A program made the position numbers and the translations under genes. Positions 48,650 to 53,170 of a stretch of 64,000 bases of DNA are shown piece by piece. The stretch comes from Symmachiella dynata. Its GTDB lineage: Bacteria > Planctomycetota > Planctomycetia > Planctomycetales > Planctomycetaceae. The notes beneath the pieces were generated by a model that worked only from the letters and a program-made list of their open reading frames with translations, searched no databases and had not been told where the DNA came from. Each line of letters begins with the position of its first letter. Position 1 is the first letter of the stretch. Location: contig NZ_CP036276.1 in assembly GCF_007747995.1 (NCBI RefSeq), positions 5,322,001-5,386,000 of the forward strand. The letters run 5' to 3'.

Positions 48650-49165
48650 ATGAAATGGCCCGTATTTTTCGCATTGGCAACTGCGGTCTGTTGGGGGATG
48701 TATGGCCCCGCTTTGGGGAAATCGCGGGCGGCACTGCACAGCCCGTTTACACCATACGTAGCAATTGGCCTGGCCTATTTATTCTGGGGCGTCGGCGGGG
48801 GCGTGCTGGGAATGATGTATAACGGGGACACCTTTTCGCTGTCCGGCCCCGGTGGAGTGTGGGGCTTCATTGCCGGGACACTGGGAGCCTGGGGAGCCTT
48901 CACGTTGACGTTGGCGATGTACAGCGGCGGTATGGCAATGCCTAATATCGTGATGCCGGTTGTATTTGGCGGGGCGGTGACCGTCTCGGCATTGGTATCG
49001 CTCTATAGCGTGGGGGACAAAGTTCCCATCAATCCGATGTTGTATGTCGGGGTCGTGGGAATGTTCATCTGCATCGTGATCGTGGCTTACTTCACCCCCC
49101 ATGCCGCTCCACATGGCAAAGCCCCTGCCTCAGATTCCGTCGAAGTGTCGGCCGAAAGCGAATGA
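48650..49165 (+). CDS. Five-helix membrane protein, possible half-size DMT-like
   Basis: A 171-residue protein that is almost entirely membrane helices. It starts with ALATAVCWGMYGPALGKSR, a pattern like the first helix of DMT/EamA-type or rhamnose-permease-like transporters, and is about half their length. The C-terminus is short and hydrophilic. Substrate is unknown. The ATG has GAGG nine bases upstream. A palindromic repeat follows the stop. Confidence 0.72.
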   Translation: MKWPVFFALATAVCWGMYGPALGKSRAALHSPFTPYVAIGLAYLFWGVGGGVLGMMYNGDTFSLSGPGGVWGFIAGTLGAWGAFTLTLAMYSGGMAMPNIVMPVVFGGAVTVSALVSLYSVGDKVPINPMLYVGVVGMFICIVIVAYFTPHAAPHGKAPASDSVEVSAESE

Positions 49166-49356: not shown

Positions 49357-49941
49357 TCAACTCATCGCTTCCTCGGCAGTGACGATCATTTGAGCGATGT
49401 CGATCAGTTTTTGGTTTTTGTCGTTCGATAGTTTTTGAAGCCGCCGAAACGCGTCCGGTTCGTCGAGGCCGGCGCGTTTCATCAATACGCCTTTGGCCCG
49501 CTCGATCACTTTGCGGTCCTCCAAGGCTTGCCGCAAGTCCGCCGCTTGTTGATGTAGGGCTTGGAATTCTTGAAACCGCCGCATGGCCAGTGCAATGGCT
49601 GTTTCCAGGTCCGCTTGTTTGATTGGTTTGACTAAATAGGCCAGCACGTGATCCTGCAGGGCCCGCTGAATCAACTCGGGTTCATGAAACGCTGAAACCA
49701 AAATCACCGGCACGGGAAAATGTTCCCGAATCCGCGTGGCCGCCTCAATCCCGTCCATGTCGGGCATTTTGATGTCCGTGATTGCCAAGTCGGGGCTGGT
49801 GGATTTACAGAGTTCCACCAGCTCCAATCCGTTTTGGGCGGCCCCCACCACTTCGTGACCCATGGCACAGAGCGTGTCTTGGAAATATTCGCACATTTCC
49901 GGTTCATCATCGGCGACGGCAATTTTCAACATGCGTGTCAT
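49357..49941 (-). CDS. ANTAR-domain response regulator (RNA-binding antiterminator)
   Basis: A 194-residue response regulator. Residues about 5-120 form a receiver: VADDEPE at the start and LAITDIKMPDMDG with the phosphorylatable Asp (about 56). Residues about 130-190 form an ANTAR domain with the typical RKVIERAKGVLMKRAGLDEP and a final helix. ANTAR domains bind paired hairpins with hexanucleotide loops in mRNA leaders and prevent termination. The start at 49941 overlaps the kinase stop as ATGA with AGGAG seven bases upstream, so the two are translationally coupled. Its RNA targets are probably near by (see 51757-51876). Confidence 0.94.
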   Translation of the reverse strand: MTRMLKIAVADDEPEMCEYFQDTLCAMGHEVVGAAQNGLELVELCKSTSPDLAITDIKMPDMDGIEAATRIREHFPVPVILVSAFHEPELIQRALQDHVLAYLVKPIKQADLETAIALAMRRFQEFQALHQQAADLRQALEDRKVIERAKGVLMKRAGLDEPDAFRRLQKLSNDKNQKLIDIAQMIVTAEEAMS

Positions 49942-51386
49942 GATTGACTCCTGGGTAATATGATCGTGATACACGCACCGCTGGGCGGTCGGTTTGAGGC
50001 TTCGATCAATCCGCCATGTGCGACAATGATGCGCTTGCAGATCGCCATTCCCAAACCGGTGCCGCGTGTCTTGGTCGTGTAAAATTCATGAAATATCTGC
50101 TGTTGTGCATCGGCTGTCAGTCCCGGACCGTTGTCGCAGATACAGATTCGCACCGCGGGTTGGCCGACAAAGTCAGTCTCCCCATATTCTACCTTGATCC
50201 GGGGTTCTTCGGTGGTCGCGGCGATCGCATTTTCTAAGATGTTGCGAAAAACCAGCCGCAGTCCGAATTTATCCCCCTGGCAATACGGATCGTCGCCGGT
50301 TTCAGTCAATGCAGCATTGCGTCCTTCGCGGGCCAAGGCCAAATCGTGCCAGGCGTGTCGCACGATGTCGGAAATCGCCGTATGTTCCGGATTCACGCGA
50401 ATGGGAGCGGCGTATTCCCGCACATCCTCATACAACTGGTGCAAGTCATCTTGCGCGCGTTGAATCCGTTTGATGAGCTTGGTCGCTTCGGGTTGGTTTT
50501 TGATACGCCGCTCCAACATCTCCAGTCCAGCTTGGCTGCGCTGCAGTGCGTTACGGCTCTCGTGGGCCAGCGCAGCCATCGCTTGGCCAATCCCCGCCAA
50601 CCGCTCGGATTGCAGCAACCTTTCTTCGGCCTGTTTGATGGCCGTGATGTCGCGGACCATGCCGGTGAACAGACGCCGATCCTCTAGCTGGACTTCACTG
50701 ACCGACAGATGGATGGGAAATGTGGTGCCGTCTTGGCGTTGAGCGACGACCTCGCGTCCCGTACCAATGATCTTGCGGATTCCCGTGCGGCGGAAGTTGC
50801 TGAGGTAGAGATGGTGCTCCGAGGAATAGGGATCGGGCATCATTTCACTGATGTTTTTGCCGATTGCTTCATCGGCCGTGTAGCCAAACATATTTTCGGC
50901 AGCGGGATTAAACGACTCGATCACCCCTGTCTCGTCGATGGTAATAATGCCTTCGACAGCCGAATTGACAACGGCCTGCATGCGGACATATTGATCGCGA
51001 AGCTCTGACTTGGCGCGTTGATGCTCGACGATACTCACCAGATCGGCCAGTAGAACGCCGGGGTTGATCGGCTTGAGGAGATAATTGGCCGCCCCCAAAC
51101 GCATGGCGGCGACGGCCCCATCGACGGAGTCGGACACGTAAATTACGGCAGCCTCAGGCGCCAAGCTTTGGATGCCGGGGATGAGTTGTTCGATAGAAAG
51201 ATCCGACACATCCTGGTCGAGGATCACCACCGAAATTTTTTCCAGACGGGTTTTCTCGAGCGCTTCGGTCGCCGTCGCGGCGGTGGCGACGAAATAGTGA
51301 TCCTGCTCCAGAATTTTGCGCACAACGTCCCGTGCCTTGGTATCCCCATCGACGATCAAAATGCGGCGTGGTTGCGGAGTGTGCAT
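49938..51386 (-). CDS. Hybrid sensor histidine kinase (receiver-PAS-kinase)
   Basis: A 482-residue cytoplasmic kinase. A receiver domain (about 8-122: ILIVDGD, VVILDQDV) is followed by a PAS domain (about 138-250: IDETGVIESFNPAAENMFGY). The kinase core has its H-box ALAHESRNALQ (His about residue 283) and an ATPase domain with NILENAIAA, ICDNGPGLT and FYTTKTRGTGLGMAI. It has no membrane segment, so it senses an internal signal. I prefer the ATG at 51386; the frame is open to a TTG at 51494, but that start lies within the T run of an intrinsic terminator. Its partner is the ANTAR regulator encoded immediately downstream. Confidence 0.92.
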   Translation of the reverse strand: MHTPQPRRILIVDGDTKARDVVRKILEQDHYFVATAATATEALEKTRLEKISVVILDQDVSDLSIEQLIPGIQSLAPEAAVIYVSDSVDGAVAAMRLGAANYLLKPINPGVLLADLVSIVEHQRAKSELRDQYVRMQAVVNSAVEGIITIDETGVIESFNPAAENMFGYTADEAIGKNISEMMPDPYSSEHHLYLSNFRRTGIRKIIGTGREVVAQRQDGTTFPIHLSVSEVQLEDRRLFTGMVRDITAIKQAEERLLQSERLAGIGQAMAALAHESRNALQRSQAGLEMLERRIKNQPEATKLIKRIQRAQDDLHQLYEDVREYAAPIRVNPEHTAISDIVRHAWHDLALAREGRNAALTETGDDPYCQGDKFGLRLVFRNILENAIAATTEEPRIKVEYGETDFVGQPAVRICICDNGPGLTADAQQQIFHEFYTTKTRGTGLGMAICKRIIVAHGGLIEASNRPPSGACITIILPRSQS

Positions 51387-51492
51387 GGTCTCACTGTTGT
51401 TCCCAAAGGCAAACCGGCCCGAAGCCAATTCTGCAATCGTTCCTATTCCAAGCGCAGCACCAGCCGCAACCACAGACGTTTTATATAACGAC

Positions 51493-51536
51493 AAAAAAAG
51501 CCCACACGTCGCACCGATCTATGCGACGTCCAGGCT
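51493..51536 (-). terminator. Intrinsic terminator in the leader of the kinase/ANTAR operon
   Basis: On the minus strand: AGCC, a 3-base internal loop, ACGTCGCA, an 8-base loop, TGCGACGT, a 3-base loop, GGCT, then seven T. It lies about 107 bp upstream of the kinase ATG on the same strand. No minus-strand gene lies upstream for it to end. It is either an attenuator in the operon leader or the end of a small RNA. Confidence 0.8.
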
Positions 51537-51756
51537 GTCATTGCCGTACGATCCGGTCGACCACGCCATGGGCCCACGGACGCAACAAAATGTCGTGAAA
51601 CAGCGCGGCTTCGGGATGCAGATTGCCCCCTCCGCTGAACGCAGCATTTCTACGCGCATCATAACCTGACGGTACTGACGGGGAAAGTGCGACGGCCGAT
51701 TTCCCAGCCACGCACAACGCGGGACAACGGGAGACGCGACTGTTGTGATTGAAATC

Positions 51757-51784
51757 TTGACGAACTGCGCAGCATTGTATACAT
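51757..51784 (+). promoter_or_regulatory. Near-consensus sigma-70 promoter upstream of the BON operon
   Basis: TTGACG (51757-51762) and TATACA (51778-51783) are separated by 15 bases, or 16 to the overlapping ATACAT. A TG just before the -10 element gives an extended -10. It would start transcription near 51790. Confidence 0.5.
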
Positions 51785-51789
51785 TAGTC

Positions 51790-51876
51790 CTGCCTCGACC
51801 GCCCATGACCGGGTGGCCGAGTTTGGTAGTGATTGCCTTTTCGCAGGGTCCAAGGACCGGCGGGAAGGTTTTTTTT
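51790..51876 (+). ncRNA. Structured leader or small RNA with hexaloop hairpin and terminator
   Basis: Three structures lie in a row. Hairpin 1 (51794-51821): CTCG and CGAG outer stem, one mismatch, CCGCCC/GGGTGG inner stem, and a 6-base loop ATGACC. Hairpin 2 (51825-51837): GGTA/TGCC around GTGAT. The terminator (51836-51876) follows. Hairpin 2 shares two bases with the terminator's left arm, so the two may exclude each other. This order resembles ANTAR-responsive leaders, although loop 1 lacks the consensus G at position 4 and loop 2 has five bases. It is either the attenuated leader of the BON/cytochrome operon (ATG 60 bp on) or a free RNA of about 87 nt. Confidence 0.55.
51836..51876 (+). 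terminator. Strong intrinsic terminator upstream of the BON gene
   Basis: CCTTTTCGC (51836-51844) pairs with GCGGGAAGG (51860-51868) with two G-T wobbles. An inner GGTCC/GGACC stem caps it. Eight T follow. No plus-strand protein gene ends near by, so it must end a short leader or small RNA. Confidence 0.88.
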
Positions 51877-51935
51877 ATGGACTGATCCGAATGTCTGCGG
51901 ATCTCCAAATTTGCTAAAACAGGGGAAAAAGCGAG

Positions 51936-52214
51936 ATGCCTGGTCTGGTAAGGGAGGACAGGAAACGAAATCGGTTGAACTCTCGAGATGCGGAAATCGA
52001 AGAGTCCGTGCTGGAGAATCTACGGGCAACTTCTATCTCATTTGGCGAATCGATCGCTTGCCAATGCCAAGATGGCAGGCTTGTCCTGACAGGCACGCTT
52101 CCCTCGTATTATCACAAGCAATTGGCCCAAGAGATCGCGGGACAAGTTGAGGGAGTGCGCGTCGTCATTAATCAAATCCAAGTCGATTTCGCCAAATCAT
52201 CTCGGCCCCGCTAA
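51936..52214 (+). CDS. Small BON-domain protein
   Basis: A 92-residue protein. Residues about 20-85 form a BON domain: an amphipathic helix (EIEESVLENLRAT), the central Gly in VLTGTLPSYYHKQ, and the last strand VRVVINQIQVDF. BON domains bind phospholipids or other BON proteins. No signal peptide is visible, so location is uncertain. The ATG has AGGGGA nine bases upstream. It heads a plus-strand unit with the cytochrome c-like gene, preceded by the terminator-containing leader. Confidence 0.82.
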   Translation: MPGLVREDRKRNRLNSRDAEIEESVLENLRATSISFGESIACQCQDGRLVLTGTLPSYYHKQLAQEIAGQVEGVRVVINQIQVDFAKSSRPR

Positions 52215-52307
52215 ATCACCAGACGACTGCCCCAACTGAGGGGAAAATCAATTCTTAAATCACCCTTCGCAAACAAATCACCATTCGCAAACAAGGAGTA
52301 CAACACG

Positions 52308-52883
52308 ATGACCGACTACTTCCGGAGCCTGAATACCCCACGCCTCCTCACAGTCGCATTGACGCTGACCGCAGTTTTCGGGACAGCTTGGGTGCTCAGT
52401 AGTCAACCGGATCAGGTCTCACATGCTGCTGAACCGGCTGCCCAGAAGGATGCAGGCAAAAAAGCTGCCGATCCTAATCTCCGGAAAATGACCCCGGTTC
52501 AGGTATTCATGCGCGCGAAGCTTGATGACAACACAAAAATCCTCGAAGGGCTGATGACCAACCAATTCGACCAGATTGTCGATGCAGCAGATCATCTGCT
52601 TTTGATGAGTAAAGCGACTGAGTGGCACGTCATTCAAGGCCCAATTTATAAGCAACATAGCACAGAATTTCGCCGCGCTGTTGAGCGTCTCAAAATCGAC
52701 GCAGAAAAGAAAAAGTTAGATGCAGCAACTTTGGCCTATATGCACATGACGATGACCTGCGTCAGTTGCCATAAATTTGTCCGTGGCACACAACTTGCTG
52801 GTAATGTTGAGCTGCCGACCCATTCACTTGTCTCATTACCTCAAACTCAACCCCTAGTCCCTGACAATCCAATCAGCCGCTAG
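52308..52883 (+). CDS. Exported class II cytochrome c-like protein
   Basis: A 191-residue protein with a signal or anchor segment (about 12-33) and a helical body. One heme-binding motif, CVSCH at 151-155, lies near the C-terminus. A C-terminal CxxCH on a four-helix bundle is the layout of cytochrome c'/c556-type proteins. It probably carries one covalent heme outside the cytoplasm. The ATG follows CAAGGAGTACAACACG. It is downstream of the BON gene (93 bp gap). Confidence 0.82.
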   Translation: MTDYFRSLNTPRLLTVALTLTAVFGTAWVLSSQPDQVSHAAEPAAQKDAGKKAADPNLRKMTPVQVFMRAKLDDNTKILEGLMTNQFDQIVDAADHLLLMSKATEWHVIQGPIYKQHSTEFRRAVERLKIDAEKKKLDAATLAYMHMTMTCVSCHKFVRGTQLAGNVELPTHSLVSLPQTQPLVPDNPISR

Positions 52884-52897
52884 CAAGAGGAAGGCCG

Positions 52898-53170
52898 ATG
52901 ATGCTGTTACTCCCTGCCGAAAAAATCGCAAAACGACTCCAAACTCCGCAACCAAACCGGAACACGTCTTCCACCAAAGGGGAGATTGCTGAGTATCGCG
53001 ACGAAGAGATCTCCGACTTGCCGGACAACGAATTGATCGCCGCCATTCGTGCCGCGCAGCTGCCGTACCTGAGTCAGCGATTTGAAGACCGCTTGGAGTA
53101 CTGCGACCGGGACGTCCTGGAACGGCTCGTGCATTTGGCCCGCCACTGTTGTCGCAACCAAGGGCATTAG
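52898..53170 (+). CDS. Small conserved-looking protein of unknown function
   Basis: A 90-residue, soluble-looking protein. The middle is acidic (EIAEYRDEEISDLPDNELI) and the C-terminal half is helical, ending LVHLARHCCRNQGH, with a Cys-Cys pair flanked by His. The ribosome site AGAGGAAGG before the ATG is strong and it lies 14 bp after the cytochrome stop, which supports it over overlapping minus-strand frames. Function is unknown. Confidence 0.62.
   Translation: MMLLLPAEKIAKRLQTPQPNRNTSSTKGEIAEYRDEEISDLPDNELIAAIRAAQLPYLSQRFEDRLEYCDRDVLERLVHLARHCCRNQGH

Follow-up and report, generated by a model that had tools for sequence, protein, structure and literature searches.

The gap between two divergent operons of the planctomycete Symmachiella dynata holds two transcript leaders that are the same element, composed in each case of a hairpin (P1), a linker, a short second hairpin (P2) and a strong intrinsic terminator. 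Judging from sequence, we consider it likely (probability about 0.85) that both leaders are controlled by antitermination through the ANTAR protein encoded beside them. The window, by which we mean the whole stretch of DNA that was analysed, is 64,000 nt long (GCF_007747995.1, NZ_CP036276.1, positions 5,322,001-5,386,000, forward strand). Its genome (G000) is one contig of 7,767,809 bases, and a protein search gave planctomycete MAGs as its nearest relatives. In window coordinates, the features of the locus are:

49357 to 49938, minus strand: gene of the REC-ANTAR antiterminator (Pfam Response_reg and ANTAR), preceded by the kinase gene
49938 to 51386, minus strand: gene of the sensor kinase, REC-PAS-HisKA-HATPase by Pfam, with a FixL-like haem PAS domain
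51493 to 51536, minus strand: intrinsic terminator of the kinase/ANTAR leader, with a T7 tract at 51493-51499
51533 to 51545, minus strand: P2 of the kinase/ANTAR leader, GGCAATGACAGCC, folding as GGC-[AATGACA]-GCC, its 3′ arm in the terminator base
about 51553 to 51579, minus strand: P1 of the kinase/ANTAR leader, core CC-[CATGGCGT]-GG, matched by the covariance model R1
51757 to 51785, plus strand: promoter of the BON/cytochrome operon, TTGACG-17-TACATT, 9/12 matches
51794 to 51821, plus strand: P1 of the BON leader, 10 pairs with one mismatch, hexaloop ATGACC
51825 to 51837, plus strand: P2 of the BON leader, GGTAGTGATTGCC, three nucleotides from P1, its 3′ arm forming the 5′ base of the terminator
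51836 to 51876, plus strand: intrinsic terminator of the BON leader, stem 51836-51868 and T8 tract 51869-51876
51936 to 52214, plus strand: gene of a 92-aa BON-domain protein (Pfam BON, E 3e-13), the first of the attenuated operon
52308 to 52883, plus strand: gene of a 191-aa protein, the second of the BON operon, with one CxxCH motif and 86% identity in G001, a genome of the same genus

The BON operon is divergent from the kinase/ANTAR operon. A search of the 7.77-Mb genome for the ANTAR family returned one match only, the gene at 49357-49938, whose product scores 82.9 bits against PF03861 (curated cut-off 27.3). The 191-aa protein, which had been called a cytochrome in the original prediction, had no match in Pfam or NCBIfam. 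The kinase frame also offers a TTG start at 51494, inside the minus-strand terminator; the more probable start is the ATG at 51386, which G001 keeps. Convergent to the ANTAR gene, positions 48650-49165 of the plus strand encode a 171-aa membrane-like protein that is kept in all three genomes of the genus (L134 8511-7996, L133 10743-10231; 79-97% identity) and has no match in Pfam or NCBIfam.

Transcription of the BON operon is predicted to start just before P1. Three promoter-like sites were counted in 50500-53000 against 1.6 expected, the BON promoter being not significant by itself. None of 500 dinucleotide shuffles was as stable as P1 of this leader (z -3.6) and one of 500 was as stable as its terminator (z -4.1), while P2, folding as GGTA-GTGAT-TGCC with a five-base loop, is weak when taken alone (-2.8 kcal/mol, 28/500 shuffles as stable, z -2.0). 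For the kinase/ANTAR terminator, 4/500 shuffles were as stable (z -2.9). Neither terminator was listed by a simple terminator scan, and both rest on folds and conservation. In each leader the 3′ GCC of P2 also takes part in the base of the terminator, so that a folded P2 and a complete terminator are mutually exclusive. The leaders combine features by which ANTAR-target RNAs are recognised, namely two stem-loops of at least 3 bp with a short linker (3 nt in the plus leader, longer in most relatives) and occurrence together with an ANTAR protein gene, with the mark of the attenuating subclass, a P2 that overlaps the 5′ side of an intrinsic terminator. The original prediction had placed a promoter, hairpins and both terminators in the gap, and folds, shuffles and conservation in G001 bear it out; the hairpin pair that it described for the BON side stands there, but is not confined to it, as the kinase/ANTAR leader has a P1 and a P2 too. 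The two P2 13-mers of the window both fit GGYARTGAYWGCC; because this pattern was drawn from that pair, their likeness is suggestive only and calls for outside tests. Rfam gave no match at the gathering threshold over the window and, within the gap, one chance match (E 2.6).

Conservation within the genus follows the elements. In G001 the plus promoter segment (51750-51793) is 93.2% identical, plus P1-P2 95.5% and the plus terminator 92.3%, and on the minus strand P1 with linker is 86.1% and P2 with terminator 86.8% identical, the P2 13-mer being unchanged. The middle of the gap is 72.8% identical, the stretch from the minus terminator to the kinase ATG 68.2% and that from the plus terminator to the BON ATG 83.3%. 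The hexaloop of the plus P1 reads ATGACT in G001. A second genome of the genus, G002, has a kinase/ANTAR operon without an adjoining BON gene; its kinase leader comprises P1 (CC-[CATGGTGA]-GG), P2 (GGCGACGATAGCC) and a terminator, and its BON gene, about 55 kb from the ANTAR operon, carries an element of its own that R1 matched blind, the sequence being absent from the model. A DNA search with the leader by itself found, in its own genome, that leader and short chance pieces; in the set of 59 genomes it returned G001 together with a 26-bp piece of G038. The piece in G038 and a second piece in the own genome resemble coding sequence and were rejected as leader copies.

Covariation was assessed in an alignment of elements from ANTAR loci. 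A rule requiring P2 and a terminator, applied with nine duplicate loci excluded, gave 38 rows, 23 of which entered alignment A4. The 15 dropped rows were ten without a P1 (L014, L029, L051, L060, L061, L067, L078, L079, L140, L145), L124 and L146 (a single place, where P1 could not be used), two rows of L012 that nearly duplicate L010, and one of L002 and L134, which are the same place. Pair counts for P2 are biased because P2 was picked through its pairing; the pairing of P1 lay outside the selection rule, yet rows lacking P1 were removed by eye. Within these 23 elements, five of the seven P1 pairs have changed on both sides. None of 500 shuffles reached the percentage of paired cells (88.1 against 75.2 in shuffles), the covariation score (0.431 against 0.209) or the number of cells with double changes (35 against 13.6), while the number of further pair types was reached by 3/500 and that of doubly changed pairs by 41/500. 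When the 3′ partner of P1 was slid along the alignment, all cell-based measures fell. R1, a covariance model of P1, linker and P2 from which the terminator was excluded, matches the plus leader at 51795-51837 (33.3 bits) and the minus leader at 51533-51579 (30.5 bits), both sequences being part of the model.

Of 59 relatives, 19 have an ANTAR match; R1, run over all 59, gave 65 hits at E <= 1. A terminator, called where a fold of at most -10 kcal/mol begins at P2 and a T-rich tract is present, stood behind 35/45 hits in genomes with ANTAR and 0/20 in genomes without it (Fisher p 1e-9, hits within one genome not being independent); at random positions it was called at 32/4000 and 19/4000, respectively. 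Hits outnumber independent events, since the element-bearing genomes are related. At 31 bits or more there were 18 hits in ANTAR genomes and none in the others; lowering the threshold to 26 bits brought these counts to 33 and 12. Terminator-backed hits made up 3/3 in G000, 3/3 in G001, 2/2 in G002, 9/10 in G010, 8/10 in G025, 3/4 in G038 and 7/7 in G052, and the ten hits without a terminator in ANTAR genomes were spread over G010, G025 (2), G027, G034 (2), G038, G040, G054 and G058. Genomes that had contributed no seed sequence to the model gave 8/10 (G025), 7/7 (G052) and 0/2 (G034) hits with a terminator.

The 19 genomes divide into 14 with a relative of the window protein at 55% identity or more and five with distant ones only. 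Terminator-backed elements occur in 7/14 genomes with this ANTAR type and 0/45 others (p 1e-5). The other seven of the 14 have no terminator-backed R1 hit; two of them, G005 and G049, show look-alikes by eye, that of G049 preceding a BON gene. Across the ANTAR loci themselves (56 sources, some of them duplicates) there were 37 R1 hits at E <= 1, of which 30 had a terminator. Taken together, these tests came out in favour of the plan put forward in the original prediction, in which the second hairpin competes with a terminator: G001 conservation and P1 covariation support it, the same element recurs at many planctomycete ANTAR loci, and terminators stand behind R1 hits only where an ANTAR gene is present.

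Other searches were less informative. In a sample of 294 genomes of the phylum, 26 had an ANTAR match at E <= 0.001 and four an R1 match at E <= 0.05, namely G000 and three without an ANTAR match, in none of which a terminator follows, so the R1 score by itself is unspecific; this search is weak because few candidates per genome were scored. Seven lower-scoring R1 hits in G000-G002 that had received no terminator call were examined, and none has a terminator. A pattern of P2 plus T tract was no commoner in six genomes than its reversed control; by eye, it named a second BON/cytochrome leader and an ion-channel leader in G002 as candidates. At L146 (4212-4130, minus strand; G005), two terminators stand in tandem behind a P1-like hairpin, downstream of or near the ANTAR gene, each after a P2-like hairpin (loops AATGAAA and AACGACA), possibly a double attenuator.

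In the mechanism that we propose, RNA polymerase would by default start just upstream of P1, make P1 and the terminator, and halt before the first gene. The kinase would phosphorylate the REC-ANTAR protein, probably at low oxygen, given the FixL-like haem PAS domain of the kinase. The phosphorylated protein would then dimerise and bind the P1 loop followed by the P2 loop in the nascent RNA, an order taken from EutV. Bound protein would keep P2 folded, leaving the 5′ arm of the terminator without its base, and polymerase would continue. Through the kinase/ANTAR leader the circuit would be auto-amplifying, and through the BON leader it would drive the BON/cytochrome operon; a third copy of the element in the genome (G000:C1:623763-623806) precedes a hemerythrin-domain gene, and likewise in G001.

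Ten of the 30 terminator-backed elements at ANTAR loci, that of the window included, have a BON gene at most about 310 nt downstream, in every case divergent from the ANTAR gene. At locus L003, from an Isosphaeraceae MAG, one element faces a BON gene and the other an operon of globin kinase, response regulator, kinase and ANTAR genes. Behind the 35 terminator-backed elements of the genome search there were 51 candidate ORFs; 30 were scanned with Pfam and 25 matched something: BON (4), Hsp20 (3), PPDK (2), and one each for PFOR, Cpn60 (GroEL), FBPase, ADP-forming acyl-CoA synthetase, CBS, hemerythrin, CsrA (behind a BON gene), cNMP-binding, PAC2, baeRF, radical SAM and others, with two weaker matches, a partial one to cNMP and one to cytochrome c′, below the Pfam cut-offs. 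To us, this target set suggests a low-oxygen or dormancy-like response. A CsrA-like gene follows an attenuated BON gene at L194 (2770-3066, minus strand; G025; Pfam), and at L266 (G002) inspection by eye shows a reading frame resembling CsrA downstream of the second BON leader.

The PAS domain of the window kinase resembles that of FixL structures (8js5, E 2.1e-31; 1dp6, E 2e-30) and keeps two columns that we take to be the haem proximal His and the pocket Arg of a FixL-type haem PAS. At L003 a kinase has a globin domain instead (Pfam Protoglobin, E 6.7e-33). Of 57 loci rows, 23, from 20 distinct loci, show a globin of this kind, and 22 of these keep the His; six rows, from 5 distinct loci, show a FixL-type PAS with both His and Arg, and the globin is absent from all six. 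That haem sensors of two different types occur in one circuit points to a gas as the signal, most likely oxygen, and on this sequence evidence oxygen is a reasonably probable signal of the circuit. The circuit may also be as described and respond to NO, CO, redox state or an input through the REC domain of the kinase, a possibility to which we give clearly less weight: haem sensors bind several gases, the window kinase has an N-terminal REC domain and reaches 206 bits with the NCBIfam FixL equivalog (cut-off 850), and a hemerythrin target gene would also suit NO or iron-sulphur stress, but two unrelated haem folds known for oxygen sensing occupy the kinase position, and PFOR, PPDK, Hsp20 and GroEL targets suit low oxygen.

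The loops depart from the rule for ANTAR targets, in which both are hexanucleotides with A1 and G4. In the plus leader, loop 1 (ATGACC) has A1 but A at position 4, and loop 2 has five bases; opening of its A-U pair would widen it to seven (AGTGATT), with A at position 1 and G at position 4. In the minus leader, loop 1 is ATGGCG only with a C-T mismatch closing it, and loop 2 has seven bases (AATGACA, with A1 and G4). P1 is a pentaloop with G at position 3 in 18/23 model sequences (in the alignment register), and most planctomycete rows have P1 directly upstream of P2, with the loop NNGRN. The doubts already attached to the original prediction, a first loop without G4 and a second of five bases, were well placed and mark a planctomycete variant of the RNA. 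With the hexaloop rule failed, the window leaders are best filed as a new, planctomycete variant of ANTAR antitermination.

Loops that deviate from the ANTAR consensus, in an element for which Rfam has no family, could also belong to attenuators worked by another RNA-binding protein or by a leader ribosome, with the ANTAR gene incidental. We regard this as unlikely: terminator-backed hits are restricted to ANTAR genomes (0/20 elsewhere), elements flank ANTAR operons at many loci, and a P2 in the terminator base is the plan of ANTAR targets in the excerpts of PMC3369931. It is more improbable still that each P1-P2-terminator unit is a small RNA in its own right, perhaps a sponge for ANTAR protein, with the operon promoters downstream of the terminators, for although the off state would yield a short transcript to the T tract anyway and a sponge of this kind, EutX, is known (PMC8934654, in excerpt), the elements stand close before same-strand ORFs at many loci and the stretch from the plus terminator to the ATG is, at 83.3%, less conserved than the element.

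The window ANTAR protein was aligned by sequence to EutV (6ww6), the numbering offset being inferred from Asp54. Arg142, Lys143, Lys149 and Glu160 are kept, and the replacements are Lys147 to Arg, Tyr164 to Phe, Arg168 to Gln, Met172 to Asn, Asn173 to Asp, Arg175 to Asn and Arg177 to Lys. In EutV, Tyr164 stacks on G4; Met172 is described in the excerpts of PMC8934654 as essential, plugging the hexaloop and possibly determining its size. In the 45 rows that are 55% or more identical to the window protein, Met is never present at 172 (36 Ser, 4 Asn, 2 Ala, 2 Thr, 1 Arg), and Arg at 175 occurs once. Among 44 rows at 41-47% identity, almost all from Chloroflexota, 43 have the Met and 43 the Arg. 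Loss of Met172 was considered as a special mark of the window ANTAR type and rejected: eight more distant planctomycete rows lack it too, so loss of the plug goes with the phylum. Its coincidence here with loops that are not hexaloops appears to be an association, and no causation is implied. G025, G038 and G052 (L114, L119, L131) also encode a further ANTAR protein, more distantly related, in which Gln stands at the position of EutV Met172.

On balance we lean slightly towards a wider reading, a planctomycete low-oxygen or dormancy regulon run at the RNA level, in which haem kinases with a FixL-like PAS or a globin would cause REC-ANTAR proteins to open terminators before BON, Hsp20, GroEL, PFOR, PPDK and hemerythrin genes and before their own, using a non-hexaloop code and no Met plug. 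If true, antitermination would join DNA-binding oxygen regulators as a means of controlling a whole stress regulon, in a phylum whose gene control is little known. It would also provide a new ANTAR RNA code, with a fixed loop G outside a hexaloop; as the change of code is accompanied by a change in the residue proposed to measure the loop, loop choice by ANTAR proteins would become directly testable. R1 serves as a search model that marks target genes in planctomycetes, including the cultured Singulisphaera acidiphila DSM 18658, where three elements are backed by a terminator.

Known systems share parts of this plan. NasR/NasT and AmiR likewise combine an ANTAR output with an attenuated leader, but exert nitrate or amide control over nitrogen genes, whereas here haem sensors are linked to stress and energy genes. 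The mycobacterial DosR dormancy regulon resembles the present circuit in its haem sensor kinases and in counting Hsp20 and further low-oxygen functions among its targets; DosR works at promoters on DNA, whereas the window circuit would work at terminators on RNA, and no homology is claimed. We found no comparable planctomycete haem-kinase/ANTAR circuit in the accessible part of the PMC literature, a collection outside which subscription papers mostly lie; as excerpted, PMC12316311 and PMC8396549 describe no such circuit, and the string "planctomyc" is absent from the excerpts of PMC8164766 on actinobacterial ANTAR-target RNAs. Those RNAs, as described there, also required a lineage-tuned covariance model and also have dual stem-loops with A/G-rich loop positions, but often lie on ribosome binding sites and act on translation, while those of the window lie on terminators.

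The closest likeness is to EutV and the eut leaders of Enterococcus faecalis. As far as the excerpts of PMC3369931 and PMC8934654 extend, the two systems share a kinase with a REC-ANTAR protein, two small stem-loops, a P2 that overlaps the 5′ side of an intrinsic terminator, an element common to several leaders with one near the regulator genes, and the RNA-contact residues Arg142, Lys143, Lys149 and Glu160. In eutP, cutting the linker to 3 nt reduced induction (PMC3369931, in excerpt), which counts against the proposed mechanism in the plus leader, where the linker has this length. Unlike the eut leaders, those of the window have no A1/G4 hexaloops; Met172 is replaced by Asn (by Ser in most relatives) and Arg175 by Asn, the input would be a haem sensor kinase rather than EutW, and the targets are others.
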